From Cyclobacteriaceae bacterium (GTDB lineage Bacteria; Bacteroidota; Bacteroidia; Cytophagales; Cyclobacteriaceae): a DNA stretch of 34,357 nt. How positions within the stretch are numbered: position 1 is the first letter of the stretch; every line of letters starts with the position of its first letter. Made by a program: the position numbers and the translations under genes. Below the pieces are notes generated by a model. It searched no databases, was not told where the DNA came from, and worked only from the letters and a program-made list of their open reading frames with translations. The DNA lies in contig JANWWN010000031.1 of the NCBI GenBank assembly GCA_025055435.1, forward strand, positions 1 through 34,357, read 5' to 3'. This document shows positions 3,736 through 24,933 of the stretch, piece after piece.

Positions 3736-5241
3736 TTAGTGATTAAGTAATTGTTGATTCAATTTTTCTTTCCATAGGTCGTAAGCCTGCCGGTACTTTT
3801 CCGAGAATTCCGGCCCGGGTTCGTAAAACCTGATACAGGTTAGGTTCGAATACGCTTCTTCAAAATTTGCATAAATCCCTACACCTAAACCTGCACCGCG
3901 AGCTGCTCCCTGTGCTCCGTCGGTATTATATAAGGAGAGTTGCGCACCAATTACATTGGTAAAGGCTTCGCAAAACAGGTCACTCAGAAACATATTGGCC
4001 GACCCGGCGCGTATCACATCGGTTTTGACTCCGAGCTCTTTTAAAACCTCAAAACCATACCCCAGGGAAAATACGATTCCCTCCTGCACTGCTCTTAACA
4101 TATGACCCAAGGTATGCCGGTTCAGGTTTAGCCCGTGAATACTGGCACCGATGTTTCTGTTTTGCAAAATCCGTTCAGCACCGTTGCCAAATGGCAGTAC
4201 AACCAGATGATCCGACCCGAGAGGAGCTGATGCAGCGAGGCGATTTAACTCCTGATACGTGGGGAGGTTTCCGGTCAGTGCCAGATTTTTCCTCAGCCAA
4301 CTGTTCATTATGCCTGTTCCATTAATGCAGAGTAAGATTCCTAGTTTTGGATCATGTGCTGAATGGTTTACATGGGCAAAGGTATTTACACGGGCCAGAC
4401 GGTCGGCCACCGGCTTATCGGTAACACCATAAATAACCCCTGAAGTACCGGCCGTTGCCGCTGTTTCGCCCGGGTGGAGCACGTTAAGTGCAAAAGCATT
4501 GTTGGGTTGGTCGCCGGCGCGATAGCTCACCGGTGTGCCTGGAGCAAGACCCAGCTCGGAGGCAGCCGTTTCGCTAAGCCTGCCCTGAATTGAAAAGGTA
4601 GGCACTGCTTCAGGCAGGATATCCTTTTGGATGTTATAATAATTAAGGAGTCGATCGGCAAGGGTATGCTTTTGAAAATCCCAAAATATTCCTTCTGAGA
4701 GGCCTGGTATGGTTGTATTGACTTCACCGGTTAGCCGCATGACCAGATAGTCGCCCGGAAGCATGGCTTTGAAAATTTTATCATAAATACGAGGCTCGTT
4801 GTCCTGCACCCATTTTAGTTTGGAAGCGGTAAAGTTCCCAGGGGCATTCAACAGCCGCTCCATACAGTACCATTCGCCCAGCTGATGGAAAGCCCTGTTC
4901 CCGATTTCCACGGCCCGACTATCGCACCAAATAATGGAAGGGCGCAAAACCTGCTTTTGCCTGTCGATAAGTACAAGGCCATGCATTTGATAGGCGACTC
5001 CCAAACCGACAATGTATTTTGGATTTATACCGGCGGCTTTCAAAACTTTATGGGTTGCGGCAACGGCATGTTTCCACCACAATTCCGGATGTTGTTCAGC
5101 CCAGTCATCAAATGGGCTAACAATTTCCATCTCCTGGTCCGGGGACTGAGCTGAAGCAAGTAGTTGTCCTGAGGCAGCCTCCAGCAGGGCAACTTTCACG
5201 GATGAGCTGCCTAAGTCGAAACCCATCAGATAAGACTTCAT
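3736..5241 (-). CDS. xylB: Xylulokinase, FGGY family
   Basis: Phosphorylates D-xylulose to D-xylulose 5-phosphate, which enters the pentose phosphate pathway. The FGGY fold is recognised by the N-terminal nucleotide-binding strand LMGFDLGSSSVKVALLEA, substrate motifs GVGLGVAYQMHGLVLID and IIWCDSRAVEIG, the catalytic aspartate in SYRAGDQPNNAFALN, and the C-terminal ATP-site motif IRAGSANMFLSDLFCEA followed by TDGAQGAARGAGLG. The ATG at 5241 (MKSYLMGFDLGS) gives 501 residues, close to the family norm; a longer TTG start would add only seven residues. It is the first gene of the minus-strand operon and diverges from susC across a 238-nt control region with LacI-type operators, so it is probably xylan- or xylose-inducible. 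Pairing with xylA makes the substrate assignment strong. Confidence 0.95.
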   Translation of the reverse strand: MKSYLMGFDLGSSSVKVALLEAASGQLLASAQSPDQEMEIVSPFDDWAEQHPELWWKHAVAATHKVLKAAGINPKYIVGLGVAYQMHGLVLIDRQKQVLRPSIIWCDSRAVEIGNRAFHQLGEWYCMERLLNAPGNFTASKLKWVQDNEPRIYDKIFKAMLPGDYLVMRLTGEVNTTIPGLSEGIFWDFQKHTLADRLLNYYNIQKDILPEAVPTFSIQGRLSETAASELGLAPGTPVSYRAGDQPNNAFALNVLHPGETAATAGTSGVIYGVTDKPVADRLARVNTFAHVNHSAHDPKLGILLCINGTGIMNSWLRKNLALTGNLPTYQELNRLAASAPLGSDHLVVLPFGNGAERILQNRNIGASIHGLNLNRHTLGHMLRAVQEGIVFSLGYGFEVLKELGVKTDVIRAGSANMFLSDLFCEAFTNVIGAQLSLYNTDGAQGAARGAGLGVGIYANFEEAYSNLTCIRFYEPGPEFSEKYRQAYDLWKEKLNQQLLNH

Positions 5242-5298
5242 GAATGGATAACCAAAGTTCAATTCAGCGCAAAAAAGGCGAGAAATGCAATAAAAAAA

Positions 5299-11706: not shown

Positions 11707-11750
11707 ATCAAGACAAAAGTTTGAGGATGGGTTCGATAAATACACTGATT

Positions 11751-13019
11751 ATGAAACTCCCGGCATTATTAATTTTCATCGTATGCAGCTTACCGCTAAA
11801 TGTTTACAGCCAGATTGCCGCCGGAAAATGCAAATTCCTCGGCAATGTCATTAACAACAGCGTACCACCTACATTTAACACCTATTGGAATCAGGTAACT
11901 CCTGAAAACGGTGGTAAATGGGGGGTTGTTGAATCCACACGCGATGTTATGAACTGGACCACCCTGGACCTCGCCTTTAATCATGCAAAAAATAATCGAT
12001 TTCCATTCAGGCTTCACACGCTTATCTGGGGCAACCAACAACCACTTTGGATTGCCAGCCTCCCACCTGCCGAGCAACTCGAAGAAATTATCGAATGGTT
12101 CTCCCTGGCAGGAGCCAGGTATCCCGGAACAGGATGGCCGGAAGATGTACCTTTTTTTATTGATGTGGTAAATGAACCCATCAACGACCCGCCCAATCAG
12201 GGAGGTGACGGCGGAAATTACATTCAGGCACTGCTGGGGCCGACCGGATCTGGTTATGATTGGATTATTAAAGCTTTTGAACTGGCACGCCAGTATTTCC
12301 CTACTGCCAAACTTCACATCAACGAGTATAACGTTATTAATAATGACAGCCGGACAACAGAGTACCTGTACATCATCAACCTGCTGAAAGCACGTAATCT
12401 TATCGATGGTATTGGAATACAGTGTCATCGGTTTGAAATTGAAACCGCTCCCTCCAGTCAGTTAACCAATAATTTGAATCGACTGGCCGAAACCGGGCTC
12501 CCGATTTTTATTACTGAGTTTGATGCCGGAAATATTGGCGGAACCGGGACGCCAGACGACAATCAACAGCTTGAGGTTTACCAAAGAGTTTTTCCATTAC
12601 TATGGAATCACCCGGCAGTACACGGGATAACTTTGTGGGGTTACATTGAAGGCCAGACCTGGCAATCAACAGCTTATCTTTTACGCAGTAATGGTACCGA
12701 ACGTCCCGCGCTTACCTGGCTAAAAGGTTTTGTTCCCACTACACAGGGAGGAACATTCTGCCTGACCACCGATTTGGAAAAAGAAAGACTTAAATTCCAT
12801 GTTTACCCAAATCCCTCCTCCTCTGGCCGGTTTATTGTGGAGTCACAGGTAAACAACCTGTTCATAACGGTTTATGATGTGCATGGCAGGATACTGGTTC
12901 ATCGATTACTATCTGCAAGCAATCCCACCGAGTTGCACGTTTCAGATCATCAGGGCATATATCTGATGGAAATTAAAGAGGGAAACAAAACCCATTACAG
13001 GAAATTGCTAATCAGATAG
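11751..13019 (+). CDS. GH10 endo-1,4-beta-xylanase with T9SS C-terminal sorting domain
   Basis: Secreted endoxylanase that cuts the xylan backbone with retention of configuration. The signal peptide is MKLPALLIFIVCSLPLNVYS. The GH10 domain spans about residues 25-330: NQVTPENGGKW, RLHTLIWGNQQPLW, the acid/base glutamate in DVVNEPIND (E142), the nucleophile glutamate in IFITEFDAG (E256), and TLWGYIEGQTW. The last ~80 residues (about 343-422) form a type A T9SS sorting domain: VYPNPSSSGRF, ITVYDVHGR, and the terminal GIYLMEI...YRKLLIR. The ATG at 11751 is chosen because it begins at the signal peptide; in-frame starts further upstream (ATG 11727, TTG 11721) only add a polar extension. The enzyme would be exported to the surface or medium, unlike the other glycosidases here. 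It stands alone between two terminators. Confidence 0.93.
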   Translation: MKLPALLIFIVCSLPLNVYSQIAAGKCKFLGNVINNSVPPTFNTYWNQVTPENGGKWGVVESTRDVMNWTTLDLAFNHAKNNRFPFRLHTLIWGNQQPLWIASLPPAEQLEEIIEWFSLAGARYPGTGWPEDVPFFIDVVNEPINDPPNQGGDGGNYIQALLGPTGSGYDWIIKAFELARQYFPTAKLHINEYNVINNDSRTTEYLYIINLLKARNLIDGIGIQCHRFEIETAPSSQLTNNLNRLAETGLPIFITEFDAGNIGGTGTPDDNQQLEVYQRVFPLLWNHPAVHGITLWGYIEGQTWQSTAYLLRSNGTERPALTWLKGFVPTTQGGTFCLTTDLEKERLKFHVYPNPSSSGRFIVESQVNNLFITVYDVHGRILVHRLLSASNPTELHVSDHQGIYLMEIKEGNKTHYRKLLIR

Positions 13020-13099: not shown

Positions 13100-14176
13100 A
13101 TGAAATCACCATCTCTATCATTTCTATCTGCTATCGTATTAAGTTCTTTGCTTTGTACAGCTTGTTTCCGAAAAACCAAAACTGATGGGCCAGAAGAATC
13201 CCATAAACCTTTGCCTATTTCTCCACCCCTGGTCACTCACCTTTACACGGCCGACCCATCGGCTCACGTCTTTAATAATCGCATCTACATTTATCCCTCT
13301 CACGATATCGAATCGGGCATCCCCGAAGATGACCTCGGCTCGCATTTCGACATGCGCGATTACCACGTTTTCTCCATGGAAAACATCCCCGGCAAAGTAA
13401 CCGATCATGGCGTTGCACTTCACATTAAGGATGTTCCCTGGGCCTCCCGCCAGATGTGGGCACCCGATGCCGCATTCGCCAATAACACCTACTACCTCTA
13501 TTTTCCGGCAAAAGACAAGGCGGATGTTTTTCGCATTGGCGTGGCCAGTGCAAGCAATCCCGAAGGTCCCTTCGTTCCGGAAAAAGAACCCATTGCGGGC
13601 AGTTACAGCATCGATCCGGCTGTTTTCCGCGATGACGACGGAAGTTATTACATGTACTTTGGCGGCATATGGGGCGGACAGCTCCAGCGATGGAACAATA
13701 ACCGTTACAACCCCGAAGCAAAAAACAGGCTGCCTCATGAACAGGCTGTTCTGCCACGGGTGGCAAAACTCGCAGCCGATATGAAGAGCTTCGCTGAAGA
13801 AGTACGCGAACTAAAGCTCACCGATGAAAACGGAAATCTGTTTCTGGAAAAAGATAATGACAAGCGATTCTTCGAAGCACCCTGGATGCACAAATACAAC
13901 GGTCTGTACTATTTTTCCTATTCAACCGGAGATACGCATCGGATTTGCTATGCTACAGGCGATTCACCCTACGGCCCTTTTGTTTACCGTGGCATCATCC
14001 TTGAGCCTGTGTGGGGATGGACCAATCATCATTCCATTGTTGAGTTTAAAGGAAAATGGTATTTGTTTTATCATGACACCGAATTATCGGGTAAAACGCA
14101 TCTGCGTAACATGAAAGTTACCGAACTGCACCATCGTGATGATGGGAGTATTGAAACCATAGTACCTTACCAGTAA
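13100..14176 (+). CDS. GH43-family beta-xylosidase/alpha-L-arabinofuranosidase, lipoprotein
   Basis: Five-bladed beta-propeller glycosidase, inverting, acting on xylo-oligosaccharides or arabinosyl side chains. A lipoprotein signal precedes Cys22 (SSLLCTACFRK), so it is membrane-anchored. The three GH43 catalytic acids are visible: general base D52 in LYTADPSAHVFNN, pKa-modulating D172 in YSIDPAVFRDDDGSYYMYF, and general acid E259 in RFFEAPWMHKYNGLYYF. The late propeller histidine region NHHSIVEFKGKWYLFYHD is present. At 358 residues it is a single catalytic domain without an added CBM. It lies 4 nt before the GH51 gene and is the first gene of a likely six-gene run through to the sugar kinase. 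Whether it prefers xylose or arabinose cannot be read from sequence; the GH43 subfamily would have to be assigned by alignment. Confidence 0.9.
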   Translation: MKSPSLSFLSAIVLSSLLCTACFRKTKTDGPEESHKPLPISPPLVTHLYTADPSAHVFNNRIYIYPSHDIESGIPEDDLGSHFDMRDYHVFSMENIPGKVTDHGVALHIKDVPWASRQMWAPDAAFANNTYYLYFPAKDKADVFRIGVASASNPEGPFVPEKEPIAGSYSIDPAVFRDDDGSYYMYFGGIWGGQLQRWNNNRYNPEAKNRLPHEQAVLPRVAKLAADMKSFAEEVRELKLTDENGNLFLEKDNDKRFFEAPWMHKYNGLYYFSYSTGDTHRICYATGDSPYGPFVYRGIILEPVWGWTNHHSIVEFKGKWYLFYHDTELSGKTHLRNMKVTELHHRDDGSIETIVPYQ

Positions 14177-14180
14177 GCCG

Positions 14181-15716
14181 ATGATGAAAAAACTTTTAGC
14201 TTTATTCTTTCTTACGCCCGCATTTGCCTTCTCGCAGAATCTCATCACCATTCGAACCCATGAAGGCAGGGATACCATCAGCCGCCATATTTATGGCCAT
14301 TTTGCCGAGCACCTGGGTCGTTGCATTTACGAAGGACTCTATGTGGGCGAGGGAAACACATCCATACCTAACAAAAATGGTATTCGACTGGATGTTGTTG
14401 AAGCGTTAAAGAAACTGAAAGTGCCCGTACTGCGGTGGCCTGGTGGATGCTTTGCCGATGCCTACCATTGGCGCGATGGCATAGGCCCGAAATCGCAAAG
14501 GCGACACACGGAAAATGTGTGGTGGGGTAATGTGCGCGAGGATAACAGCTTCGGAACGCACGAATTTCTGGAGCTTTGTGAAATGCTCGGTGCCGAACCC
14601 TACCTGGCCGTAAACGTAGGAAGTGGCACCGTACAGGAAGCTGCCGAGTGGGTACAATACGTGAACCACAAAAACGGAACAAGCGCATTAACCGATTTGC
14701 GCAGGCAAAACGGCCGCGATAATCCCTGGAAAGTGCAGTATTGGGGCATAGGTAATGAATCGTGGGGGTGCGGTGGCAATATGACGGTTGAATATTATGT
14801 AAACCTCTACCGGCAGTTTGCCACCTTCATGACCAGCTATTCCAACTCCGAAAAACTTTTTCGTATAGCTGTAGGGCCCGGAACCGAGGATTACCATTGG
14901 ACTGAAGTATTGATGCGCGATATTCCCCGAAATATGATAGATGGGGTCTCCATTCATCATTACTCGGTAATCAACTGGCGCAACAAAGGATCGGCAACCC
15001 GGTTTTCAGGGCAAGAGTATTATTCCACCATCAGGGAAGCCTTACGGGTTGATAAGATCATAACCCGCCATAAGGCAGTAATGGACAAATATGATCCGCA
15101 AAAAAAAGTAGCCTTGATTGTTGACGAATGGGGTACCTGGTACAACGTGGAGCCGGGAACCAACGGGGCTTTTTTGTATCAGCAAAATACACTGCGCGAT
15201 GCGGTGGTGGCCGGCCTGTCTCTCAACATCTTTAACCAGCACTGCGACCGGGTAAAAATGGCGAACCTTGCCCAGATGGTAAATGTACTTCAGGCAGTTA
15301 TCCTTACCGAGCGTGAAAAAATGCTGTTAACGCCCACTTACCATGTGATGGAAATGTACACCGTACACCATGACGCACTGCTATTGCCCATAGTAAAAAA
15401 AGTGAATCAACGCATTCTGGCCGGAGATACCTTAAGTGTAATATCGGCATCGGCATCCAGAAAAAATAATACAGTAAGTATATCACTGGTTAATATCGAT
15501 TTGGAAGAAACACAAAAAGTAAACATTACACTCGAAGGCATGCCGATTAAAAAAATCTCCGGGCGAATACTGAAAAGTGATGCCGTTCAGGATCACAATA
15601 CATTTGCCCGGCCTGATAAGGTTAAACCTGCTGCTTTTTCTGATTTCAAATTCAACGGCAATACACTCGAAACCGCACTTCCTCCGTTCAGTGTGGTGGT
15701 TCTTCAGATAAACTGA
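14181..15716 (+). CDS. GH51 alpha-L-arabinofuranosidase, secreted
   Basis: Retaining glycosidase that releases L-arabinose from arabinoxylan side chains. A Sec signal peptide (MMKKLLALFFLTPAFAFSQ) indicates export to the periplasm, although many GH51 enzymes are cytoplasmic. The (beta/alpha)8 catalytic domain spans about residues 25-370. Markers are YGHFAEHLGRCIYEGLYVG, VLRWPGGCFADAYHWRDGIG, the acid/base glutamate in WGIGNESWGCGG (E193), SIHHYSV, and the nucleophile glutamate in IVDEWGTWY (E316). The C-terminal beta-sandwich domain ends with LPPFSVVVLQIN. Length (511) is normal for the family. It follows GH43 by 4 nt and precedes the esterase by 27 nt. The arabinose it releases has no isomerase/ribulokinase route in this window, which bears on the role of the kinase at 19781. 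Confidence 0.94.
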   Translation: MMKKLLALFFLTPAFAFSQNLITIRTHEGRDTISRHIYGHFAEHLGRCIYEGLYVGEGNTSIPNKNGIRLDVVEALKKLKVPVLRWPGGCFADAYHWRDGIGPKSQRRHTENVWWGNVREDNSFGTHEFLELCEMLGAEPYLAVNVGSGTVQEAAEWVQYVNHKNGTSALTDLRRQNGRDNPWKVQYWGIGNESWGCGGNMTVEYYVNLYRQFATFMTSYSNSEKLFRIAVGPGTEDYHWTEVLMRDIPRNMIDGVSIHHYSVINWRNKGSATRFSGQEYYSTIREALRVDKIITRHKAVMDKYDPQKKVALIVDEWGTWYNVEPGTNGAFLYQQNTLRDAVVAGLSLNIFNQHCDRVKMANLAQMVNVLQAVILTEREKMLLTPTYHVMEMYTVHHDALLLPIVKKVNQRILAGDTLSVISASASRKNNTVSISLVNIDLEETQKVNITLEGMPIKKISGRILKSDAVQDHNTFARPDKVKPAAFSDFKFNGNTLETALPPFSVVVLQIN

Positions 15717-15743: not shown

Positions 15744-17666
15744 ATGATACGTTTACTCCTGATACCCGCACTTATTTCGGCAAGTGGCCTGCAGCCCGTG
15801 TTGTGCCAGATAAAACTGCACCGGCTGATAAGCGATGGCGCCGTACTGCAACGCAATGTGCCGGTTCCGCTCCAGGGGACCAGCACGCCTTTCGAAGTCA
15901 TTACCCTGACTTTTGGCAACGCCCTATTCACTACCCGAGCCGACAGCACAGGTATGTGGAAAATACTTCTTCCACCTCAGCCTGCCGGTGGGCCGCACAC
16001 CTTGCGATTTAGCGGAACCAATGAAGTCGTTGTTCATAACATACTGTTTGGCGATGTGTGGATTTGCTCGGGACAGTCGAATATGGAGATGACCGTAGAA
16101 CGCGTAAAAGAAAAATACCGGGCACTGATTGAACAATCTTTCAATCCGTATATACGGCATTTCGAAGTACCCGATCGCTATGATTTTAAAAGACCGCACC
16201 CGGAACTAACAGGTGGACAATGGAAAGAAGCCAATCCAGAAAATGTGCTCGAATTCTCAGCCGTAGCCTGGTTCTTCGCAAAAGACCTGTTTGAACACTA
16301 CAAAGTGCCTATCGGTTTAATCAATGCCTCGCTGGGTGGCTCGCCGGCCGAAGCATGGATGAGCGAAGATGCGCTAAAAGCTTTTCCCGAAGCCTATGCG
16401 GAAATGCAACGTTTCAAAGATGATGCACAAATTAAAGAGATTGAAAGTACGGACTCAAAAAATGCCTCCGAATGGTACTACCGGCTTAACACAACCGATA
16501 GCGGATTACGTAAATGGCATTTACCTAATCTGGATGATACCGATTGGCCAACACTGGAGCTGCCCACCTATTGGCCTGCCGGCTCAGGTCTTACCACCGG
16601 TGCCATATGGTTACGAAAAGTAATCGAAGTGCCGGAAAAATTATGCGGAAAAAGCGGAAGTCTGTGGCTGGGCCGGATTGTGGATGCCGACTCGGTGTTT
16701 ATTAATGGCGAATTTGTCGGAACAACTTCTTACCAATATCCGCCACGTCGTTATTCCTTCGGCCCCGGCGTGCTTCACCCCGGCAAAAACATCATCGCTG
16801 TTCGCGTTATCAACAGTGCCGGCCGTGGTGGCTTCGTCCCCGATAAACCCTATTTTCTTGCAGTGGGCAGCGATACCCTTGATTTAACAGGCTCATGGAA
16901 ATACCGGCAAGGTTGCAAAATGCCACCTATTGCCCCGCAAACTTTCATCCGTTGGAAACCAGGAGGATTGTATAACGGCATGATTGCGCCTTTAATTCAG
17001 TTTCCAGTTAAAGGAGTTCTATGGTATCAGGGCGAATCCAACACAAATAATCCGCAGCGGTACCGCGAAGTTTTTCCTTCCCTCATTTCCAACTGGCGCG
17101 AAAAATGGAAGCTGGGTAACCTGCCCTTTCTGTATGTGCAACTGGCCAATTTTATGGAAGCAAAACCTCAGCCTTCCGAGAGCAACTGGGCCGAACTGAG
17201 GCAGGCACAACTGGAAACCCTGAACAAGGTACCCGCCGTGGCTATGGTTGTTACCATTGATACTGGCGAATGGAATGATATTCACCCTTTAGATAAACAA
17301 ACAGTTGGCAAGCGCCTGGCGCTGGCTGCCCGCCATGTGGCATACGGTGAAAACCAACTGGTTTACTCAGGGCCTTTGTACAAGAGGCACACCATTCGAA
17401 GAAACAAAGTAGTCTTGTATTTTAATCACACCGGCAGCGGATTATGGGCAAAAGGAAGTAACGCACTGCAGCATTTCAGCATAGCCGGTGCTGATAAAAA
17501 ATTTGTGTGGGCCAATGCCAGGATAAAAAACAATAAAGTAATTGTTTGGAGCGATGCCGTTCAAAAGCCTGCTGTTGTACGTTACGCATGGGCCGACAAC
17601 CCGCATGGTGCCAATTTATACAACAAGGAAGGGTTGCCGGCATCACCTTTTACCACCGGTAATTGA
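15744..17666 (+). CDS. SASA-family (sialate O-acetylesterase-like) carbohydrate acetylesterase
   Basis: Probable acetyl-xylan esterase of the SGNH-like SASA family, exported by a signal peptide (MIRLLLIPALISASGLQPVLCQ). The catalytic serine is in ICSGQSNMEM (S112). Oxyanion-hole and core motifs are GLINASLGGSPAEAWM and GVLWYQGESNTNN, and the Asp-x-His pair is in EWNDIHPLDK (D512, H514). Between the two halves of the esterase domain, about residues 255-385, is an inserted jelly-roll domain like the sugar-binding domain of GH2 enzymes (ADSVFINGEFVGTTSY, HPGKNIIAVRVINSAGRGG). The 640-residue length fits this split layout. The family name comes from sialic acid esterases, but no sialic acid genes are present here, and its position between GH51 and pentose enzymes supports removal of acetyl groups from xylan. 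Confidence 0.87.
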   Translation: MIRLLLIPALISASGLQPVLCQIKLHRLISDGAVLQRNVPVPLQGTSTPFEVITLTFGNALFTTRADSTGMWKILLPPQPAGGPHTLRFSGTNEVVVHNILFGDVWICSGQSNMEMTVERVKEKYRALIEQSFNPYIRHFEVPDRYDFKRPHPELTGGQWKEANPENVLEFSAVAWFFAKDLFEHYKVPIGLINASLGGSPAEAWMSEDALKAFPEAYAEMQRFKDDAQIKEIESTDSKNASEWYYRLNTTDSGLRKWHLPNLDDTDWPTLELPTYWPAGSGLTTGAIWLRKVIEVPEKLCGKSGSLWLGRIVDADSVFINGEFVGTTSYQYPPRRYSFGPGVLHPGKNIIAVRVINSAGRGGFVPDKPYFLAVGSDTLDLTGSWKYRQGCKMPPIAPQTFIRWKPGGLYNGMIAPLIQFPVKGVLWYQGESNTNNPQRYREVFPSLISNWREKWKLGNLPFLYVQLANFMEAKPQPSESNWAELRQAQLETLNKVPAVAMVVTIDTGEWNDIHPLDKQTVGKRLALAARHVAYGENQLVYSGPLYKRHTIRRNKVVLYFNHTGSGLWAKGSNALQHFSIAGADKKFVWANARIKNNKVIVWSDAVQKPAVVRYAWADNPHGANLYNKEGLPASPFTTGN

Positions 17667-17727: not shown

Positions 17728-18771
17728 GTGAACTCAGCTTCAGGAAAATGGGAAAAGCGCTGGCACCCGTTACGCGAAGAATGGGTGGTGTATTCTGCTC
17801 ATCGCAACACCCGCCCCTGGCATGGAGCTCCGCCTGTTGAATCACAACCCATGCCTGCCTACGACCCAACGTGTTATTTATGTCCGGGAAATAAACGGGT
17901 AAATCATCAGTCAAATCCACATTACTCCGATATTTTCATATTTGAAAACGACCTGCCTGTAGTTTCCTTTTCGGCACCCGATATTCCTGTTGAACAAACA
18001 ATCGGTTTATACCGCAAGGCCAGAGCAACAGGTGTAGCAAAAGTCATCTGTTACGACCCACGGCATAACGTTACCCTGGCGCAGATGAAACAGGATGCAG
18101 TGTACAAAGTATTCCGTGCTTTCAGGCAGGAAATGACTGAGTTGAGTAAAATTCCAGAGATCCGTTATGTCCATATCTTCGAAAACAAAGGGCAAGCCGT
18201 TGGCGTAAGTAATCCCCATCCGCATTGTCAGCTTTATGCTACCGATTTTGTTTTCAAATTCGTTGAACAACAACTTGCCGTTGCCGAAAAATACCGATCA
18301 AATCATCAACGAAATATTTACGAAGACATTATCCGGCAGGAACAACTTGATGAAATCCGGATTATATCCGAAAATGAATACGCCATTTCCTTCTTGCCTT
18401 TCTTCGCGCGCTACGCCTATGAAACATTAATCTTCCCCAAAAAGCATCACGCCAGCCTGATAACTCTGACCGACTACGAACTTGAGGGCCTGACAGCCGT
18501 ATTTCACGAAACCGTTCGTAAAATGGATATGAACTTTAACACCGATTTTCCTTACGTGATGTCGGTAATGCAGGCACCTGTTGACGGACTTAGCTATCCT
18601 GAATTTCGCATGCATCTGTGGCTGCAACCCCCGTACCGCCAGCCCGGCCTGATTAAATACCTGGCCGGCCCTGAGATCGGTGGTGGTAATTTCATGGCCG
18701 ACACCATGCCCGAAGATAAAGCAGCCGAACTTCGTGCGCAGGATGCAAAAAAATATCCCTTTGAAAAATGA
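17728..18771 (+). CDS. galT: GalT-like hexose/pentose-1-phosphate uridylyltransferase
   Basis: HIT-superfamily nucleotidyltransferase that, in classical form, swaps UMP between UDP-glucose and galactose 1-phosphate. The active site is intact: NPHPHCQLYA carries the catalytic histidine H166 and zinc ligand H164, with zinc ligands C49 and C52 in CYLCPG and H113 in DPRHNVTL. Length (347) is normal. The start is GTG at 17728, the first start after an in-frame stop; the next ATG would remove conserved sequence (WEKRWHPLREEWVVYSAHR). The stop overlaps the next gene by 4 nt (ATGA), implying coupled translation. Its setting, between xylan enzymes and a kinase resembling L-arabinokinase, suggests that the substrate may be L-arabinose 1-phosphate; that is inference. 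Ordinary galactose metabolism is the conservative reading, since galactosyl side chains occur on some xylans. Confidence 0.88.
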   Translation: MNSASGKWEKRWHPLREEWVVYSAHRNTRPWHGAPPVESQPMPAYDPTCYLCPGNKRVNHQSNPHYSDIFIFENDLPVVSFSAPDIPVEQTIGLYRKARATGVAKVICYDPRHNVTLAQMKQDAVYKVFRAFRQEMTELSKIPEIRYVHIFENKGQAVGVSNPHPHCQLYATDFVFKFVEQQLAVAEKYRSNHQRNIYEDIIRQEQLDEIRIISENEYAISFLPFFARYAYETLIFPKKHHASLITLTDYELEGLTAVFHETVRKMDMNFNTDFPYVMSVMQAPVDGLSYPEFRMHLWLQPPYRQPGLIKYLAGPEIGGGNFMADTMPEDKAAELRAQDAKKYPFEK

Positions 18772-19784
18772 ACCATGCATTGATAAAAAATTTGTTGCTG
18801 GATGCCGGTAAAGCTATAAGGCAACACCTCATTCATTCATTATCTGCACAAAGCGTTCATGATTTATCCCTGATCCGTGAGCAAAAGCAGGAAGACACCA
18901 TCTTTGCCATCGACCGTGAAGTAGAACCTGTATTGTTACAGATTTTCCATGAATATCAGGAAGCGGTGGGCGGTATTGTACTAATTGCCGAGGGTGTAGG
19001 CGATGAAAGCGGACATGTGGTACTGCCGCAAAATATACCGATACATCAGGCACAGGTACGAATTATTGTTGACCCAATTGACGGAACACGCGGCCTTATG
19101 TACAATAAACGCCCTGCCTTTTTTCTTGCCGGTGCAGCTCCCAACAAGGGCCAGGCAACAGGCCTTTCTGATATTGAGGTGGCCGTTATGGTGGAGTTGC
19201 CGGTAAGCAAACAGTATCTGGCCGATACCCTGTGGGCTATTAAAGGCAAGGGTGTGCAGGGGGTAAGGGATAACATCCTGACCGGAACATCCGAACAAAT
19301 TTTTGTTGCTCCATCAAAAGCTACTTCCATTTTAGGTGGGTTTTCGCAATTTGCCCGTTTCTTTCCTCCGGGCCGTGAAATCCTCTCGGCTATTGAAGAG
19401 GAATTTATACGTGCGGTCACTCCCAAGTCGGCAGAAAAGGCGCTTGTATTTGAAGACCAATACATATCCAGTGGCGGGCAACTCTATGAATTGCTCATGG
19501 GGCACGATCGTTTTGTGGCCGATATCCGCGGTCTGCTCTACCAAAAACTCCGAAAAGAGGGTAAGGCAGGCGGACATGTTTGCCATCCATATGATGTGTG
19601 TGCGCACCTCATCGGGTGCGAAGCAGGGCTGGTGATTACTGATGAATACGGCAACGAACTAAACGCCCCGCTTAACCTCACCCACGAAATCAACTGGATA
19701 GGATATGCAAACAGTCAGTTATGTTCACACTTGAAACCCGAATTGCTTTCGCTCTTAAAAAAACATCAACTCATTGAACCATGA
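18768..19784 (+). CDS. FIG/inositol-monophosphatase-superfamily sugar phosphatase
   Basis: Lithium-sensitive-type phosphatase fold (IMPase/FBPase/bisphosphate nucleotidase superfamily). Metal-binding residues are visible as E75 in VLIAEGVGDE, D102 and D105 in IIVDPIDGTRGLMYNKR (the DPxDGT motif), and D276 in HPYDVCAHLIGCEAG, which replaces the usual WDxAAG. An early EDTIFAIDREVE matches the conserved aspartate segment. At 338 residues it is longer than typical IMPases (about 260-270). No signal peptide, so cytoplasmic. It overlaps galT upstream and the sugar kinase downstream by 4 nt each. The substrate is not known from sequence. A sugar 1-phosphate produced by the neighbouring GalT-like enzyme, such as xylose 1-phosphate, is an attractive inference; inositol phosphate or a nucleotide are alternatives. 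Confidence 0.78.
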   Translation: MNHALIKNLLLDAGKAIRQHLIHSLSAQSVHDLSLIREQKQEDTIFAIDREVEPVLLQIFHEYQEAVGGIVLIAEGVGDESGHVVLPQNIPIHQAQVRIIVDPIDGTRGLMYNKRPAFFLAGAAPNKGQATGLSDIEVAVMVELPVSKQYLADTLWAIKGKGVQGVRDNILTGTSEQIFVAPSKATSILGGFSQFARFFPPGREILSAIEEEFIRAVTPKSAEKALVFEDQYISSGGQLYELLMGHDRFVADIRGLLYQKLRKEGKAGGHVCHPYDVCAHLIGCEAGLVITDEYGNELNAPLNLTHEINWIGYANSQLCSHLKPELLSLLKKHQLIEP

Positions 19785-21088
19785 GCAGTAATACCTTCAG
19801 TGCCTCTGCACCGGGACGCCTCGATGTAATGGGTGGCATAGCCGATTATTCCGGCTCGATGGTATTGCAAAAAGCTATTCGCCTCAAAACGCATGTTCAA
19901 ATAAAACTTCGAACAGATTACATCTGTAGCATCACCAGTACTGTACCAGCCGGAGAAACCTTGCATTTCGCAGGCGACTACCGGAATTTTCTCGAAAACG
20001 GTAATGTCAGCTATCCCTTTGCCCGCAACATCTTCTCCCAAAACCCCAAAAGCCAATGGGTCGCTTACATTATCGGTTGCATTCTTGTTCTTCAAAATGA
20101 AAAACAAATTGATTTCCGCGGGGCCGATTTTTCTATCCGGTCCGAAGTACCTTACGGAAAGGGGGTGGCCTCATCAGCGGCCCTTGAAGTTGCCGTGTTG
20201 AAAGCGCTGACGAAAGCTTTTGGAGTTACATGCCATGGAACAGAACTGGCACGTTATGCCCAAATGGCCGAAAATCATGTGGCAGGTGCACCTTGCGGAC
20301 TGATGGACCAACTGGCTTCAGCATTTGGCCCTACGAATGCATTACTGCCGATTGTTTGTCAACCTGATCAACTCCTTCAACCTGTCACAATTCCGGAGTG
20401 GATAAAGTTTATAGGCATCGACAGCGGCATTCGTCATCAGGTTGCGGGAGCATCGTATGCCGATGTACGTTGTGCAGCTTTTATGGGTTACACCATACTT
20501 ATCCGCTCACTCGGCTGTACCGAAAAGGAAATCCATGATGCCACAGCCACCCAAAACTTCAGTTGCTTACCCTATCAGGGATATCTGAGTAATATTTCGG
20601 TGGAAGATTTTGAAAAAAGATACGCTTCCATTCTTCCCGAATCCATGAAAGGGCGTGATTTTATAAATCAGTTCGGTAGAAGCACCGACACCATTACTGC
20701 GGTTGAACCGGATAAAATTTATCAAATCAAAGTATGTACAGCTCATCCTATTTACGAAAACCGGCGCGTAAACGAATTTTTGAAATTAATTAGGAGTATA
20801 CCTGACCAGCCCGATGCGTCTGCACAACAAACTGCCTCAGGATTGGGAGCGCTCATGCTGGAATCGCATAGCAGTTATTCCGCCTGCGGACTGGGAACTA
20901 TCCGCACCGATGAAATTGTAAAGCTTGCCCAGGAATTACCCGGGATTACCGGGGCACGGGTAACCGGTGGAGGTAATGGCGGCACCGTATGTGTGCTGGC
21001 CGCAGGTGACGAGGGTGCTCGTTCGGTTGCCAGGCTTCATCAATTGGTATGCAACCAATATGGAGAAAATCTAATGCTTTTTGATTAA
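19781..21088 (+). CDS. GHMP-family sugar kinase, resembling the L-arabinokinase (ARA1) kinase domain
   Basis: ATP-dependent anomeric sugar kinase. The ATP-binding GHMP loop is VPYGKGVASSAALEVAVL (about 123-140), the catalytic aspartate is D176 in APCGLMDQLAS, and motif 3 is GARVTGGGNGGTVCVLA. At the N-terminus, where galactokinases have GEHTDYN, this protein reads APGRLDVMGGIADYSGS: the Glu and His that contact galactose are replaced by Gly and Ile. As I recall it, the plant L-arabinokinase kinase domain carries this same sequence, as well as GIDSGIRH, HPIYEN and YSACGLG, all present here. The 435-residue length matches a stand-alone kinase domain. It would make L-arabinose 1-phosphate, fitting the two arabinofuranosidase-type genes upstream. 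Automated annotation would probably say galactokinase. It ends in a stop codon that overlaps the convergent symporter gene. Confidence 0.82.
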   Translation: MSSNTFSASAPGRLDVMGGIADYSGSMVLQKAIRLKTHVQIKLRTDYICSITSTVPAGETLHFAGDYRNFLENGNVSYPFARNIFSQNPKSQWVAYIIGCILVLQNEKQIDFRGADFSIRSEVPYGKGVASSAALEVAVLKALTKAFGVTCHGTELARYAQMAENHVAGAPCGLMDQLASAFGPTNALLPIVCQPDQLLQPVTIPEWIKFIGIDSGIRHQVAGASYADVRCAAFMGYTILIRSLGCTEKEIHDATATQNFSCLPYQGYLSNISVEDFEKRYASILPESMKGRDFINQFGRSTDTITAVEPDKIYQIKVCTAHPIYENRRVNEFLKLIRSIPDQPDASAQQTASGLGALMLESHSSYSACGLGTIRTDEIVKLAQELPGITGARVTGGGNGGTVCVLAAGDEGARSVARLHQLVCNQYGENLMLFD

Positions 21089-22710
21089 CCCGCCACACCC
21101 AACGGAGAGAAATATACGAACACGCTGATAATAATCAGCACAACAATCAGGGAAAGCACCACGTCTTTCGCATTCCAGGTAGCTCTGGATTTTTCCCGGT
21201 CTTCCAGCACAGTAGTTGCGAAGGTTAACCCTTTGATGCGTTCTTCAGCCGGTTTTTCAGTAAGCAGGCTCACGCCCACCAGAAGCAAAATACAAAATAC
21301 GAATAGCGCAATACAGAAATACAGAAAATTGAGCGTAGCAAACTGATATAAAAACCCGGAAAGCGATTCTTTATTTAATTCAAGAAATATGCGCAGCCCC
21401 CCGATAAGTGCACCTGCCACCAGTGTAGCCATGGCTCCGTGTGCATTTATGCGTTTGGAAAAGATACCTAAAAGAAAAACCGCAGCAATGGGAGGTGCCA
21501 GATAGGACTGCACACTTTGAAGATACTTATACAGCACTCCGGAAATGCCGCTCATCAGCGGAATCCATAAAATGCCTAAACCCACTACCACAGCGGTGGC
21601 TATCCGACCTACGGTTACCAGATTCTTTTCCGGTGTTTCAGGACGCATTTTTTTGTAAATATCCATGGTGAATAATGTAGAGCAGGAATTAAACACCGAA
21701 GCAAGCGAGCTCATTAATGCCGCCAGTAAGCCTCCGGCAATTAATCCCCGCAGTCCGTTCGGTAACAGGGTTTTTACCAGTGTCGGAAAGGCACTGTCGG
21801 CCGAGGCGAGTTCGATTTTACCCTGTGCCGTCAATGCAGTGGCAATTAAGCCCGGTATCAGGAAGATGAAAAAGGGGAAGAGCTTAAGATAGGCCGCAAA
21901 GATAGTACCGCGCCTGGCCTGTTGTTCATCCCGGGCCGTAAGGCAACGTTGTACGATGTATTGATCCGTACACCAGTACCATAATCCAACGATGGGCGAA
22001 GCAAACAATATGCCCGCCCAGGGAAAGTCCGGATCAGATAACGGCGGGAACATATTCAGTTTGGCCTTAGGTGTGGCGCTTATCATTGCGTCCCAGCCCC
22101 CCAGCTCGTGTAAACCTATGATTGTTAGAATTAATGAGCCGGCAATCAGCAGAACTGCCTGAAGCGATTCGGTGTACACCACGGCACGCATTCCACCCAA
22201 TACGGTGTATAAACCTGTAAGGACAACCAATACCATTGCACTGGTCCAGAAATCGAAACCCATAAACGAAGCAATAACCACGGCCCCGGCGTAAACCGTG
22301 ACCGATACCTTGGTAAGCACATAACTGAGAAGTGAGATTACCGAAAGAAACCAGCGCGCAGATGAATTATACCTGCGCTCCAGAAACTCAGGCATGGTAA
22401 AAACACCGCTGCGAACATAAAAAGGTATAAATACCCACCCCAACAGTAACACAATCCAGGAATGTAATTCATAATGCCCCATTACCAGGCCACTTTCGGC
22501 TGCCGTACCCGATAGTCCAACAACGTGTTCACTACCCACATTGGATGCGAGTATTGATGCTCCCACAACAAACCATCCGACGTTCCGGCCGGCCAGAAAG
22601 TATTCCTGGGTAGTTTCTTTTTTCCGTTTCATTGACCAGATTGCTATGCCACCTATGGCAATAAAATACACAGCCACCACAGCCCAGTCGAGTGATGAAA
22701 GTAATTCCAT
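21085..22710 (-). CDS. Sodium/sugar symporter, SSS family (SGLT-like)
   Basis: Inner-membrane cotransporter expected to import a monosaccharide, most likely xylose or a related xylan sugar, with sodium. About 14 hydrophobic segments run through 541 residues. SGLT-type signatures include YFLAGRNVGWFVVGASILAS followed by NVGSEHVVGLSG, WVFIPFYVRSGVFTMPEFLE with RRYN, GGMRAVVYTESLQAVLLI, and GLWYWCTDQYIVQRCLTAR, which resembles the galactose-binding region of vSGLT. A hydrophilic loop (about 470-510) precedes the last membrane helix. The ATG at 22710 lies 42 nt after the GH3 stop, so the two form a minus-strand operon. Its stop codon overlaps that of the convergent kinase. The exact sugar cannot be read from the sequence; glucuronate is less likely because that is usually carried by other families. 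Confidence 0.9.
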   Translation of the reverse strand: MELLSSLDWAVVAVYFIAIGGIAIWSMKRKKETTQEYFLAGRNVGWFVVGASILASNVGSEHVVGLSGTAAESGLVMGHYELHSWIVLLLGWVFIPFYVRSGVFTMPEFLERRYNSSARWFLSVISLLSYVLTKVSVTVYAGAVVIASFMGFDFWTSAMVLVVLTGLYTVLGGMRAVVYTESLQAVLLIAGSLILTIIGLHELGGWDAMISATPKAKLNMFPPLSDPDFPWAGILFASPIVGLWYWCTDQYIVQRCLTARDEQQARRGTIFAAYLKLFPFFIFLIPGLIATALTAQGKIELASADSAFPTLVKTLLPNGLRGLIAGGLLAALMSSLASVFNSCSTLFTMDIYKKMRPETPEKNLVTVGRIATAVVVGLGILWIPLMSGISGVLYKYLQSVQSYLAPPIAAVFLLGIFSKRINAHGAMATLVAGALIGGLRIFLELNKESLSGFLYQFATLNFLYFCIALFVFCILLLVGVSLLTEKPAEERIKGLTFATTVLEDREKSRATWNAKDVVLSLIVVLIIISVFVYFSPLGVAG

Positions 22711-22752: not shown

Positions 22753-24933
22753 CTATTTTTTAACTGTAAAAACAGCTTGTTGCGAACGGGCAGCACCCAG
22801 CGCTTCACTTCTTGGGCCGGGCAATGCGCCACCTATATAAACCCGAACCGGACCCGGTTCAACTACCGGATTTCCATTATTATCAATTACTGCAAACATG
22901 TCGGGCGTAAGTGTAAATACTACTTCAGCCGAAGCACCGGGTGGCAGCTTAACCCGCTTTATTCCCGATAATTTGAACAAAGGTGCAATGTGCCGGCTGT
23001 TGGGTGTGGAAAGATATAACTGAACAACTTCTTCCGCTGTGTTTTTTCCGGTATTGGTAACGGTAACACGAGCATCGACCGATTGATTTCTTTTTACCTC
23101 GCCGGATGAGAGCCGGATGGCCGAGTAGGAAAAAGTACTATAGCTTAACCCAAACCCAAACGGATAAAGAGGTTCAACTTGCATGTAGCGGTAGGTACGA
23201 CCTTTCATGGTGTAATCTTCGTATGGCGGCAAATCTTCCAGTGATTTGGGAAAGGTTATCGGAAGACGACCGGATGGCGAAACTTTTCCGAATATAACAT
23301 CGGCCACCGCATGCCCCCCCTCCTGGCCCGGATACCAAACCAACAGTACCGCATCAGCCAGCTCATGAACTTCAGCCAGGTTCATCGGACTGCCTCCGGT
23401 AATGATGGCAATAACGGGGTTATTATGGCCCTCTTTGAGTTTTTTTAGAAAATCAATCTGGTGCCTGGGTAAATTATAATCCAGCCGGTCGCCAAAATAA
23501 GGCGAGGCGATCGACTCACCTTCTTCACCTTCCAGTAACCCCGATATGCCCATCACAACAAAGGTGGCATCGCTGTTTCGGGCATTGCCGGTGGTCCAGT
23601 CCTGTGGGTTGGCATTTGGCCGGTCTAACATAATTCCCTGCCGATACTGCAACTGGCTGGCCGGATGAATAGCTGCGGCAATGCCTTCCAGAATGGTAAC
23701 CATTTCGGGATTGACACCATAATAATTACCCAGCAGCACCTCAACACTGGCTGCATTGGGCCCGGTGATGAAGTATTTGCCCAGGTCGTTGCGCAAGGGA
23801 AGCACGCCATTATTTTTCAGCATAACAATCGATTTTTGGGCAGCTTCACGTGCCAAAGCGCGGTGAGCCGGACTGTTAATTACATCTGCCGGAATTCGAT
23901 TGTAAGGGTTTCGCTCCGCCGGATCGAAAAGGCCCAGTTTAAAGCGGGTACGAAGCAAGACCGTCAGCGCTTCATCGATTTCTTTTTCGGTGATAAGATT
24001 CTTTTGAACCGCTTCCAATAATGCATGGTATTCGTTGCCACAGTTCAGATTTACACCATATTTTACAGCCAGAGCCGAGGCTTCCGCAGCATTGTTCACC
24101 ACATTATGACCGTTATAGAAATCGGCAATGGCCCAGCAGTCGCTGACTACGTGTCCTTTAAAACCCCATTCTTTACGAAGTATTTCCGTGAGCAGCAGCG
24201 GACTGGCACAACAGGGACTTCCGTTGGTTCGGTTGTACGCACACATTACGGCCTCCACACCTGCATTGACCAGCGCTTTAAAAGCCGGCAGATAGGTTTC
24301 GCGTAAATCTTTCGGAGTGGCAACCGCATTGAATTCATGTCGCAGTTTTTCCGGGCCACTGTGCACGGCATAGTGCTTGGCGCAGGCTGCTGCCTTAAGG
24401 TAAACAGGGTGATTGCCCTGAAGCCCTTTCACAAAAGCCACACCCAACTTTGCGGTCAAATAGGGGTCTTCACCATAAGTCTCCTGTCCTCGGCCCCATC
24501 TTGGGTCGCGGAAAATATTAATGTTTGGTGTCCAGAAGGTAAGCCCGCCGTATTGGAGATGATAGCCTTTAGCCGTCGCTGCATTAAATCGGGCCCGTGC
24601 TTCGTCCGAAATGGCTGTGGCAACCCTGAACATCAGGTCCTCGTCAAAAGAGGCCGCCAGCCCGATGGCTTGCGGAAAGATGGTGGCCACACCGCTGCGC
24701 CCTACCCCGTGAAGGGCTTCGTTCCACCAGTTATAGGCGGGTATGCCTAGCCTGGGTATGCCAGGCGCGTTATGCATCATTTGTTGTACCTTCTCCTCCA
24801 GGGTAAGTCTGGAAACCAGGTCGTTAACCCTTTTCTCAAGCGGCAGGTCAACATTTAAATAATCCGGTTGCTGGCCAAAAACTGTGCAAACGACAAATGT
24901 TGCATAAAAAACAAGGTTACTTTTAGCTGTCAT
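22753..24933 (-). CDS. GH3 beta-xylosidase/beta-glucosidase
   Basis: Exo-acting retaining glycosidase, probably releasing xylose from xylo-oligosaccharides in the periplasm. A signal peptide (SNLVFYATFVVCTVFGQQ) is present. The GH3 N-terminal barrel spans about residues 25-340: GIPAYNWWNEALHGVGRSG, TPNINIFRDPRWGRGQETYG, KHYAVHSGPE, and nucleophile D265 in GHVVSDCWAI. The alpha/beta sandwich domain follows (SIVMLKNNGVLPL, LLEGEEGE). A C-terminal fibronectin III-like domain (FGFGLSYSTFSYS, VTVTNTGKNTAEEVVQLYLS) ends the protein at 726 residues. No PA14 insertion was seen. The WNEALHG motif is typical of GH3 xylosidase-type members. It is first in an operon with the symporter, and its promoter region contains the operator at 25031-25046. 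Glucosidase side activity is possible, but context favours xylose. Confidence 0.92.
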   Translation of the reverse strand: MTAKSNLVFYATFVVCTVFGQQPDYLNVDLPLEKRVNDLVSRLTLEEKVQQMMHNAPGIPRLGIPAYNWWNEALHGVGRSGVATIFPQAIGLAASFDEDLMFRVATAISDEARARFNAATAKGYHLQYGGLTFWTPNINIFRDPRWGRGQETYGEDPYLTAKLGVAFVKGLQGNHPVYLKAAACAKHYAVHSGPEKLRHEFNAVATPKDLRETYLPAFKALVNAGVEAVMCAYNRTNGSPCCASPLLLTEILRKEWGFKGHVVSDCWAIADFYNGHNVVNNAAEASALAVKYGVNLNCGNEYHALLEAVQKNLITEKEIDEALTVLLRTRFKLGLFDPAERNPYNRIPADVINSPAHRALAREAAQKSIVMLKNNGVLPLRNDLGKYFITGPNAASVEVLLGNYYGVNPEMVTILEGIAAAIHPASQLQYRQGIMLDRPNANPQDWTTGNARNSDATFVVMGISGLLEGEEGESIASPYFGDRLDYNLPRHQIDFLKKLKEGHNNPVIAIITGGSPMNLAEVHELADAVLLVWYPGQEGGHAVADVIFGKVSPSGRLPITFPKSLEDLPPYEDYTMKGRTYRYMQVEPLYPFGFGLSYSTFSYSAIRLSSGEVKRNQSVDARVTVTNTGKNTAEEVVQLYLSTPNSRHIAPLFKLSGIKRVKLPPGASAEVVFTLTPDMFAVIDNNGNPVVEPGPVRVYIGGALPGPRSEALGAARSQQAVFTVKK

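Follow-up and report, generated by a model that had tools for sequence, protein, structure and literature searches.

How is L-arabinose used by a bacterium whose xylan-utilisation locus encodes an arabinofuranosidase and none of the genes araA, araB and araD? L-arabinose is a major plant cell-wall sugar, and its catabolism is, to our knowledge, taught as closed, comprising AraBAD, oxidative routes and a reductive route in fungi. The question is raised by a stretch of 34,357 nucleotides from a Cyclobacteriaceae bacterium (the window), in which three adjacent genes, for a GalT-like uridylyltransferase, a phosphatase and a GHMP kinase, follow a run of glycosidase genes (Table 1). The first-pass annotation read this trio as an arabinose-to-xylose shunt, and this reading is supported here, most of the checks that can be made on sequence having come out in its favour.

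Table 1. Position, strand and profile evidence of the trio and of the surrounding genes in the window.
Feature	Position	Strand	Profile evidence
Xylose isomerase XylA	2399..3721	-	TIGR02630, 683.8 bits (cut-off 533.25)
Xylulokinase-like XylB	3736..5262	-	TIGR01312 best family, 286.5 bits (below cut-off 380.25)
SusC/SusD-like outer-membrane pair, xylan locus	5480-8533 and 8561-10411	+	PF07715/PF00593; PF07980/PF14322
GH10 xylanase with T9SS sorting tail, substrate context	11721..13019	+	PF00331, TIGR04183
GH43 glycosidase, opens the run leading into the trio	13100..14176	+	PF04616
GH51-type alpha-L-arabinofuranosidase	14181..15716	+	PF06964, PF22848
SASA-family carbohydrate esterase	15744..17666	+	PF03629
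GalT-like uridylyltransferase	17728..18771	+	PF01087/PF02744, TIGR00209
Inositol-monophosphatase-family phosphatase	18768..19784	+	PF00459
GHMP kinase, arabinokinase-like family	19781..21088	+	PF00288/PF10509/PF08544
SSF sodium/solute symporter, convergent with the kinase	21085..22710	-	PF00474, TIGR00813 (over cut-off)
GH3, beta-xylosidase-like, substrate context	22753..24933	-	NF041776, 820.7 bits (below cut-off 1250)

The three reading frames, each in frame and with a single stop at its end, are coupled as had been described, through 4-nt ATGA overlaps at 18768-18771 and 19781-19784. The GH43 and GH51 genes reported for the locus lie upstream on the same strand, followed by the SASA esterase gene, and a terminator-like hairpin (a consensus match only) stands directly 5' of the GH43 gene at 13039-13062. 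The GH51 enzyme, which reaches 262 bits against the ArfA model NF051901, below its cut-off of 625, is the likely source of L-arabinose, and the SSF symporter, which L139, L140 and L034 (the same as L141) also keep close to the trio, is a candidate pentose transporter. The XylA and XylB genes that had been placed in the same locus are indeed in the window, but on the minus strand and about 12 kb away, outside the operon of the trio. The absence of araA, araB and araD holds for all the window ORFs scanned, and in the whole host genome (completeness 97.37%) there is no match to araA (PF02610) or to an araD-type Aldolase_II (PF00596).

Among the best 80 named relatives of the kinase, 57 have a GalT gene within 4 kb (the cassettes), a linkage that is not due to chance. 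Profile matches agree with the enzyme classes first assigned to the trio. The GalT-like enzyme carries the N- and C-terminal GalP_UDP_transf domains and reaches 262.1 bits against TIGR00209 (cut-off 102.1), and the NCBI galT_1 cut-off is exceeded by both cassette GalTs tested, those of the window and L100. Cys52, Cys55, His115 and His164 (E. coli numbers), which we take to be the Zn ligands, the presumed nucleophile His166, and Gln168 are kept in all 53 cassette GalT rows (52 distinct sequences). The presumed iron site of E. coli GalT (Glu182, His281, His296 and His298) is not reproduced in the window enzyme, which has Gln, Met, His and Trp at these positions, and they are variable among the remaining cassette GalTs and, in part, among canonical ones. 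The Glc-1-P site of human GALT comprises, according to an excerpt of PMC5081055, Lys334, Phe335, Val337, Tyr339, Glu340 and Gln346; an excerpt of PMC8056384 contains nothing on the galactose site. In the cassette GalTs, the Lys and Glu of this site are kept in 53/53 rows, Val is replaced by Ala in 50 and by Gly in three, Tyr (Tyr316) is Pro in 53/53, and Gln (Gln323) is Met or Leu in 53/53, in a column that adjoins a one-residue gap and is less surely paired. As a set, the hexose-specific residues of the Glc-1-P site do not occur in these enzymes.

The phosphatase is placed in the FIG superfamily by its match to Inositol_P (PF00459, E 7.8e-9), a match found in all 25 members of its alignment, and its metal-ligand motifs AEG, DPIDGT and HPYD, at residues 74, 102 and 273, contain invariant positions of that alignment; its relation to solved structures is weak.

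The kinase belongs to the GHMP superfamily, with the N and C domains (PF00288, PF08544) and a catalytic Asp, which stands at the MDQ position in 95 of 97 kinase rows (87 distinct sequences; Asn in L127 and L128). Against the galactokinase model TIGR00131 it reaches 145.4 bits, below the cut-off of 226.65, as does the L100 kinase with 152.9 bits, and the galactokinase signature PF10509 (GalKase_gal_bdg) is barely over its cut-off (24.8 against 23.1 bits). Where galactokinases carry LIGEHTDY, the kinase has DVMGGIADYSG, and the Glu position of GEHxDY is Gly, in a GGIADY-type motif, in 97/97 rows (87/87 distinct), a constancy that is partly built in, given that the relatives, the best 80 of 262 confirmed, were found partly by the pattern DVMGGIAD. 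Gly is also found in all the kinases reached without this pattern (the window, L006, L007, L009, L121, L127 and L128), and the same position in 25 GalK-type rows is Glu in 24 and Asp in one. This Glu presumably contacts O6 of galactose, and L-arabinose is D-galactose minus C6. The family forms a clade apart from GalK; we take it to resemble the plant L-arabinokinase ARA1 in sequence, and its closest solved relative is PDB 9ulx (E 7e-108), whose name, AbGHMP, was not found in the open-licence PMC literature. A plasmid search with the kinase gave no match of at least 60% identity, and the best 20 of its 66 plasmid matches are galactokinase-like or unannotated.

The trio is probably the core of a Leloir-type UDP-pentose cycle that leads from L-arabinose to D-xylose. 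The GHMP kinase would phosphorylate L-arabinose at C1 with ATP, and the GalT-like enzyme would reversibly convert the resulting L-Ara-1-P and UDP-D-Xyl to UDP-L-Ara and D-Xyl-1-P. A GalE-type 4-epimerase, whose gene is unlinked here and, in some relatives, part of the same run, would return UDP-L-Ara to UDP-Xyl, so that the UDP-pentose pool would be catalytic, and UDP-Glc could prime it. As we know of no glycolytic mutase exit for D-Xyl-1-P, the IMPase-family phosphatase would free D-xylose from it, which would then enter XylA and XylB, with the net reaction L-Ara + ATP -> D-Xyl + ADP + Pi. What each of the three enzymes acts on, the role of UDP-xylose as donor and the direction of the cycle are inferred from the gene content, gene order, residue changes and co-occurrence that were observed. 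For the epimerase predicted to be encoded elsewhere, the host has a candidate in an unlinked GalE (G000:C64:850-1845; 414.6 bits, cut-off 262.3), and no UDP-xylose synthase was found among 3 of 7 lesser GalE-like loci checked, which match best a dTDP-glucose dehydratase, a cinnamoyl-CoA-reductase-like oxidoreductase and an epimerase/dehydratase.

Gene order in the relatives, which include Chryseotalea sanaruensis (L034) and Pollutibacter soli (L077), points the same way. GalE and XylA stand in one run in some other genomes, as the cycle predicts: for example, L100 has the operon-like run GH51-GalT-phosphatase-kinase-GalE-XylA-GH127, and L089 and L096 have GalT-phosphatase-kinase-GalE-XylA. Other runs are GH51-GalT-phosphatase-kinase-sugar binding protein-XylA-GH5-like-GH51-GH51 (L104), GalE-GalT-phosphatase-kinase-SSF (L145) and GalK-GalM-XylB-GalT-kinase-XylA (L069 and L077, the GalK member being GalK-like). 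GalT and phosphatase are both near the kinase in 25 of the 80 loci, the phosphatase is missing within 4 kb in 32 of the 57 GalT-kinase pairs, some of whose contigs end nearby, and many Cytophagales pairs sit amid unrelated genes. Both the window and several relatives show a gene context of the xylan/arabinan kind, not galactan. That the trio might occur mainly in galactan loci, an outcome the first-pass annotation had named as adverse, was not borne out, no galactan-specific family being present among the best 25 of 164 neighbour families, with one GH2 gene downstream at L105. A Pfam scan of 80 of 136 filtered neighbour ORFs (104 were aligned first, then 80; long ORFs and some others were dropped by hand) found GH127 in five of the 80, one of which (L100) had already been seen beforehand.

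The suggested co-occurrence was also recovered, the cassette being found with arabinofuranosidases and xylose isomerase, and araA is present in 0/57 cassette genomes as against 5/23 with the kinase only (p 0.0014, ignoring kinship and with many incomplete MAGs). An Emticicia-type clade has the kinase but no GalT, and araA in 5 of its 7 genomes, which counts against the proposed cycle. At least one of GH51, GH127, GH43, XylA or XylB lies near 19/57 cassettes, 4/23 kinase-only loci and 1/20 galK control loci, the controls coming from the host's order only and not being matched to the phyla of the cassettes; no such gene is near the other 38 cassettes in the DNA covered. In the 50 of 57 cassette genomes searched for XylA and galactokinase, a XylA-like gene was found in 46 and not in four. 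In a survey of the host's order, whose genomes are not phylogenetically independent, araA is present in 0/13 genomes with the kinase and 61/228 without, and XylA in 13/13 and 118/228. Two divergent kinase homologues (G059 and G075; 171 bits, both with araA) were left out of this test, and with them counted the araA contrast becomes 2/15 against 59/226 (p 0.22). Given that GalT is found at 6 of the 14 kinase loci examined in the order, within the DNA covered, this survey bears on the kinase and not on the cassette, and it overlaps with the first, since the kinase sequences of 9 of its 13 genomes recur among the named loci. We lean towards the broader view that a complete, previously undescribed L-arabinose route of this kind replaces AraBAD in about ten phylum-level groups, some of which encode it in one run that extends from an arabinofuranosidase to a xylose isomerase.

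A standard Leloir module for galactose, with the kinase as a divergent galactokinase and GalT acting on Gal-1-P, would account for the galT_1 score, for the trio's GalT being the sole GalT match in a genome that also has galK and galE, for the PF10509 signature, and for the GalK-like gene and GalM in the L069 and L077 runs. It was rejected as the main reading, and is very improbable, because the kinase falls under the galactokinase cut-off, separate galactokinases over the cut-off exist in the host (at C14; TIGR00131, 305.6 bits) and in 40 of 50 cassette genomes, and the context is one of arabinofuranosidase and xylose isomerase; the replacement of Glu by Gly in the sugar motif of every distinct kinase also stands against it. 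A single GalT-like enzyme may, however, serve both galactose, through the separate galK, and L-arabinose, through the trio kinase, which is compatible with the proposed cycle. The host's one GalT beside a separate galK suggests this, as do the runs that join GalK-like, GalM and arabinokinase-like genes, but the Tyr316 and Gln323 replacements in every cassette GalT speak against it, and such dual use is possible without being likely.

The kinase and GalT might also make UDP-L-arabinose for glycans, in the manner of plant ARA1 and USP, and not for catabolism. Excerpts of PMC5897480 and PMC12281597 describe the plant arabinokinase as supplying UDP-L-Arap synthesis, the gene 3' of the host GalE encodes an aminotransferase of the kind found in surface-sugar clusters, and GalT is absent near the kinase in Asgard relatives and in the Emticicia-type clade. 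Such salvage is nevertheless unlikely, considering the position of the trio in a xylan-utilisation locus with GH43, GH51 and a phosphatase, the runs with XylA, XylB, transporters and GH127, and the absence of araA. As improbable as the galactose module is a GalT that uses UDP-Glc and releases Glc-1-P, with no free xylose made from arabinose by the phosphatase; L103 has a PGM/PMM-family gene between the kinase and GalE, which would be more in keeping with Glc-1-P as the product, and the 32 cassettes with no phosphatase nearby agree with it. By stoichiometry, however, a 4-epimerase cannot regenerate UDP-Glc from UDP-Ara, so that UDP-Glc would only be able to prime, and a phosphatase is present in the window and, together with GalT, near 25 of the 80 kinases.

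No Leloir-type arabinose-to-xylose pathway appears in the titles and abstract openings of the open-licence PMC literature, among the matches listed. If true, the UDP-pentose cycle would explain the use of arabinoxylan by degraders that have no araA, correct a misleading GalT annotation and supply enzymes for pentose interconversion.

The proposed cycle shares its enzyme classes and logic with the Leloir galactose pathway (GalK, GalT and GalE), that is, a sugar-1-kinase, uridylyl exchange and a 4-epimerase, but its substrate would be a pentose and its kinase lies outside GalK; the Leloir product reaches glycolysis via phosphoglucomutase, whereas the sugar-1-phosphate would here be dephosphorylated and D-xylose then isomerised by XylA. 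With the plant ARA1 and USP salvage it would share an L-arabinokinase that produces L-Arap-1-P, and plant UGE1 and UGE3 are given in an excerpt of PMC5897480 as bifunctional, epimerising UDP-Xyl and UDP-L-Arap; plant salvage, however, uses the pyrophosphorylase USP and builds nucleotide sugars, whereas GalT, phosphatase and XylA here point to catabolism. The motif DVMGGIADYSG is common to the trio kinase and to AbGHMP (PDB 9ulx/9uly). An oxidative ara locus is described for Halomonas in an excerpt of PMC5507952. Like AraBAD, the cycle would bring L-arabinose carbon to D-xylulose-5-P, but no ara-type isomerase or 4-epimerase was found here, C4 would be inverted at the level of the UDP-sugar, and by stoichiometry the route would cost one extra ATP.

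The window is a glucuronoarabinoxylan locus, whose gene order is listed in the table together with those of its relatives, and it forms contig C25 of a host that shares its genus with genome G013; the kinase of G013 is identical to that of locus L080, from Cyclobacteriaceae bacterium KatS3mg032. The three overlapping genes described here by the first-pass annotation were confirmed, with all the ORFs intact and an ATGA shared at both junctions. By the window coordinates, the genes upstream lie on one strand with gaps of 4 bases (GH43-GH51), 27 bases (GH51-esterase) and 61 bases (esterase-GalT), and, given these short gaps, the trio may plausibly be the 3' end of a single GH43-GH51-esterase-GalT-phosphatase-kinase transcript.

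Features of the window and of loci carrying related genes
Locus	Feature	Position	Strand
Window	KDPG aldolase, PfkB kinase, XylA, XylB	702-5262	minus
Window	SusC/D pair, GH10, GH43, GH51, SASA esterase	between XylB and trio	
Window	GalT-like uridylyltransferase	17728-18771	plus
Window	IMPase-family phosphatase	18768-19784	plus
Window	GHMP kinase	19781-21088	plus
Window	SSF symporter, GH3	downstream of trio	
Window	LacI regulator, GH67, SDR, UxuA, UxaC (glucuronate branch)	25112-31701	
L100 (Pyrinomonadaceae)	GH51	260-1930	
L100	GalT	1938-2978	
L100	Phosphatase	2975-4006	
L100	Kinase	4009-5493	
L100	GalE	5505-6485	
L100	XylA	to 7665	
L100	GH127 beta-L-arabinofuranosidase	7662-9995	
L069	Amidohydrolase-like and 6-phosphogluconolactonase/glucosamine-isomerase-like genes, immediately 3' of XylA	7892-10432	
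L077	The same genes, immediately 3' of XylA	12917-15443	
L103 (planctomycete)	Cassette that includes a PGM/PMM-family gene between kinase and GalE	5323-9450	
G302, contig C12	XylA in two overlapping pieces	61819-63139	

In the proposed cycle, L-Ara would be phosphorylated with ATP to L-Ara-1-P, which would react with UDP-Xyl to yield UDP-L-Ara and Xyl-1-P; the UDP-L-Ara would then be returned to UDP-Xyl, and the Xyl-1-P would be cleaved to Pi and Xyl, which would pass through xylulose to xylulose-5-P. UDP-Glc could prime this cycle, and its turnover would require a UDP-pentose donor, because a 4-epimerase cannot convert UDP-Ara to UDP-Glc. No mutase is known to lead from Xyl-1-P to glycolysis, which would explain the phosphatase in the module.

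The window kinase has the GHMP domains, narrowly exceeds the cut-off of GalKase_gal_bdg (24.8 bits against 23.1) and scores 145.4 bits with the TIGR00131 galactokinase model (cut-off 226.65), for which a second host kinase, on contig C14, reaches 305.6 bits. Its closest solved structure is PDB 9ulx/9uly ('AbGHMP', E 7e-108), with the next solved relative, a galactokinase, far behind (E 6.4e-23). PDB 9ulx may be an assayed arabinokinase, in which case the first step of the cycle would be supported and that step less novel, leaving the novelty of the cycle untouched. When 97 family rows (87 distinct) were aligned with 25 galactokinase-type rows, Arg28, Asp37, Asp174 and Tyr223 (E. coli GalK numbering) were conserved in 95, 94, 95 and 94 of the 97, with Gly at position 34 in all of them and Ile at position 35 in 95; the galactokinase-type rows have Glu (24/25, Asp in one) and His (25/25) at these positions. 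Glu34 is equivalent to human Glu43, which contacts the galactose 6-hydroxyl, the group that distinguishes galactose from L-arabinopyranose. A FastTree tree also splits the family from seven GalK rows at a fully supported branch.

The host genome has a single GalT match. The 53 cassette GalT rows of at least 300 residues (a cassette being a kinase locus with GalT within 4 kb) were compared with E. coli GalT and the GalTs of four relatives, two of which are cut short, and all the cassette GalTs fall on one side of the branch from these five. The Zn and catalytic positions Cys52, Cys55, His115, His164, His166 and Gln168 (E. coli GalT) are invariant in 53/53 rows, as are Arg28, Arg31, Asn77, Asn153 and Ser161. 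Glu182, His281 and His298 belong to an iron site of the E. coli enzyme; the window has Gln, Met and Trp there, and the other cassette GalTs vary at these positions. In the human GALT structure, the Glc-1-P site comprises Lys334, Phe335, Val337, Tyr339, Glu340 and Gln346 of one chain and Gln188 and Asn173 of the other (PMC5081055). The counterparts of Lys334 and Glu340 are retained in all 53 cassette rows; that of Phe335 is Tyr in 41, Phe in 10 and His in 2, that of Val337 Ala in 50 and Gly in 3, that of Tyr339 Pro in all 53, and that of Gln346 Met in 31 and Leu in 22. The retention of the catalytic residues, together with these changes, points to enzymes that keep their catalysis and have an altered sugar pocket.

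PF00459 is matched by 25/25 aligned phosphatases, including that of the window; the metal motifs are intact and the relation to any solved structure is weak, which marks a distinct subfamily. Its gene overlaps that of GalT by approximately 4 nt in 12 of the 24 further loci having both on one strand.

The first-pass annotation had pointed to a locus without araA, araB or araD and to a 4-epimerase encoded elsewhere. The host genome (2.79 Mb, 97.37% complete) has no match to araA (PF02610) or Aldolase_II (PF00596; matched in 12/14 control genomes), and one clear GalE copy, on contig C64 (414.6 bits, cut-off 262.3), with an aminotransferase gene after it. Plant UGE1 and UGE3 are listed as bifunctional, acting on UDP-Glc/UDP-Gal and UDP-Xyl/UDP-L-Arap (PMC5897480), and a GalE-type enzyme is therefore capable of the UDP-L-Ara/UDP-Xyl step.

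Several relatives have transcript-like runs that contain steps of the cycle absent from the window. Among the best 80 of the 262 confirmed named relatives of the kinase, GalT lies within 4 kb in 57, the phosphatase in 28 and both in 25, one of which (L079) has its phosphatase on the opposite strand. The GalT-positive loci, mostly from MAGs and some possibly misbinned, are labelled as Bacteroidota, Acidobacteriota, Planctomycetota, Chloroflexota, Gemmatimonadota, Myxococcota, Rhodothermota, Abditibacteriota, Omnitrophota and KSB1. Cultured environmental carriers include Chryseotalea sanaruensis and Pollutibacter soli. The run of L100 includes XylA (535.1 bits, cut-off 447), GalE (416.6, cut-off 262.3) and PF07944 (E 1e-136), and L104 shares this core, with a sugar-binding protein replacing GalE, XylA at 536 bits and three GH51-type genes. 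The order is GalT-phosphatase-kinase-GalE-XylA in L089 and L096, with XylA and GalE exceeding the cut-off in each, GalK-GalM-XylB-GalT-kinase-XylA in L069 and L077, GalT-phosphatase-kinase-GH51-GH127 in L090, and GalE-GalT-phosphatase-kinase-SSF in L145, from the host's order; in L105, genes for a sugar ABC transporter and a GH2 protein come after GalT-phosphatase-kinase. Each XylA piece in G302, a near relative, is 90% identical, as if split by a frameshift or misassembly.

The distribution of araA was compared using Fisher tests that ignore phylogeny. It was found in 0/57 genomes of GalT-positive loci (0/50 plus 0/7) vs 5/23 kinase-only genomes (p 0.0014), although all five belong to the Emticicia-type clade (5/7 of the clade), so that this is effectively one lineage, with genome completeness not given. 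Among 241 genomes of the host's order, 13, spanning nine genera, have a kinase match of at least 267 bits, and araA occurs in 0/13 of these vs 61/228 others (p 0.02), XylA in 13/13 vs 118/228 (p 3e-4), and araA among XylA-positive genomes in 0/13 vs 58/118 (p 3e-4). The two surveys are not independent, since nine of the 13 share kinase sequences with the named loci. The survey of the order also speaks to the kinase and not to the cassette, since only 6/14 of its kinase loci examined have GalT in the sequence covered around them. When two divergent homologues (30-32% identity) are included, the araA contrast becomes 2/15 vs 59/226 (p 0.22), and p 0.009 in XylA-positive genomes. These homologues, L127 and L128 (genomes G059 and G075, both with araA), have a GGTAEY motif and Asn in place of the catalytic Asp, and are perhaps no longer kinases.

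Fifty of the 57 cassette genomes were searched further: 46 have XylA-like proteins (strong class II in 37, weak in nine, with TIGR02631 XylA over the cut-off at the loci of four of the nine) and 40 have a galactokinase over the cut-off. In the sequence covered around each locus, GH51, GH127, GH43, XylA or XylB lie near 19/57 cassettes, 4/23 kinase-only loci and 1/20 of the relatives' galK loci (cassettes vs galK loci, p 0.009), the sole positive galK locus being an FGGY-kinase match. GH127 was the top-ranked family (5/80 ORFs) in a Pfam scan of 80 of the 136 large neighbour ORFs.

The Emticicia-type loci (L054, L057, L061, L065, L066, L068 and L071) have the kinase without GalT, with GH127 near three of the seven. 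In L071, the one scanned, the kinase lies among GH109, NagP-like MFS transporter, thiolase and M20 hydrolase genes, and genes of the same clusters occur in the others. In this clade, where five of the seven genomes have araA, the kinase perhaps has another use. The same kinase family is found in L059, L064 and L073, labelled Asgard (Lokiarchaeota, Sigynarchaeota), where GalT is absent within 4 kb and, in L059 and L073, the kinase gene adjoins a HAD-type hydrolase cluster.

Two observations count against the cycle, namely the 32/57 cassettes without a near phosphatase and the PGM/PMM gene of L103, which may be a sign of a different product route. Taken together, the anatomy of the locus and the comparative genomics support well the earlier reading of the cassette as a putative Leloir-like cycle from L-arabinose to D-xylose. 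No prior description of such a pathway was found in the open-licence literature searched. The cassette would work in the manner of the Leloir pathway, yet it does not resemble the galactose pathway.
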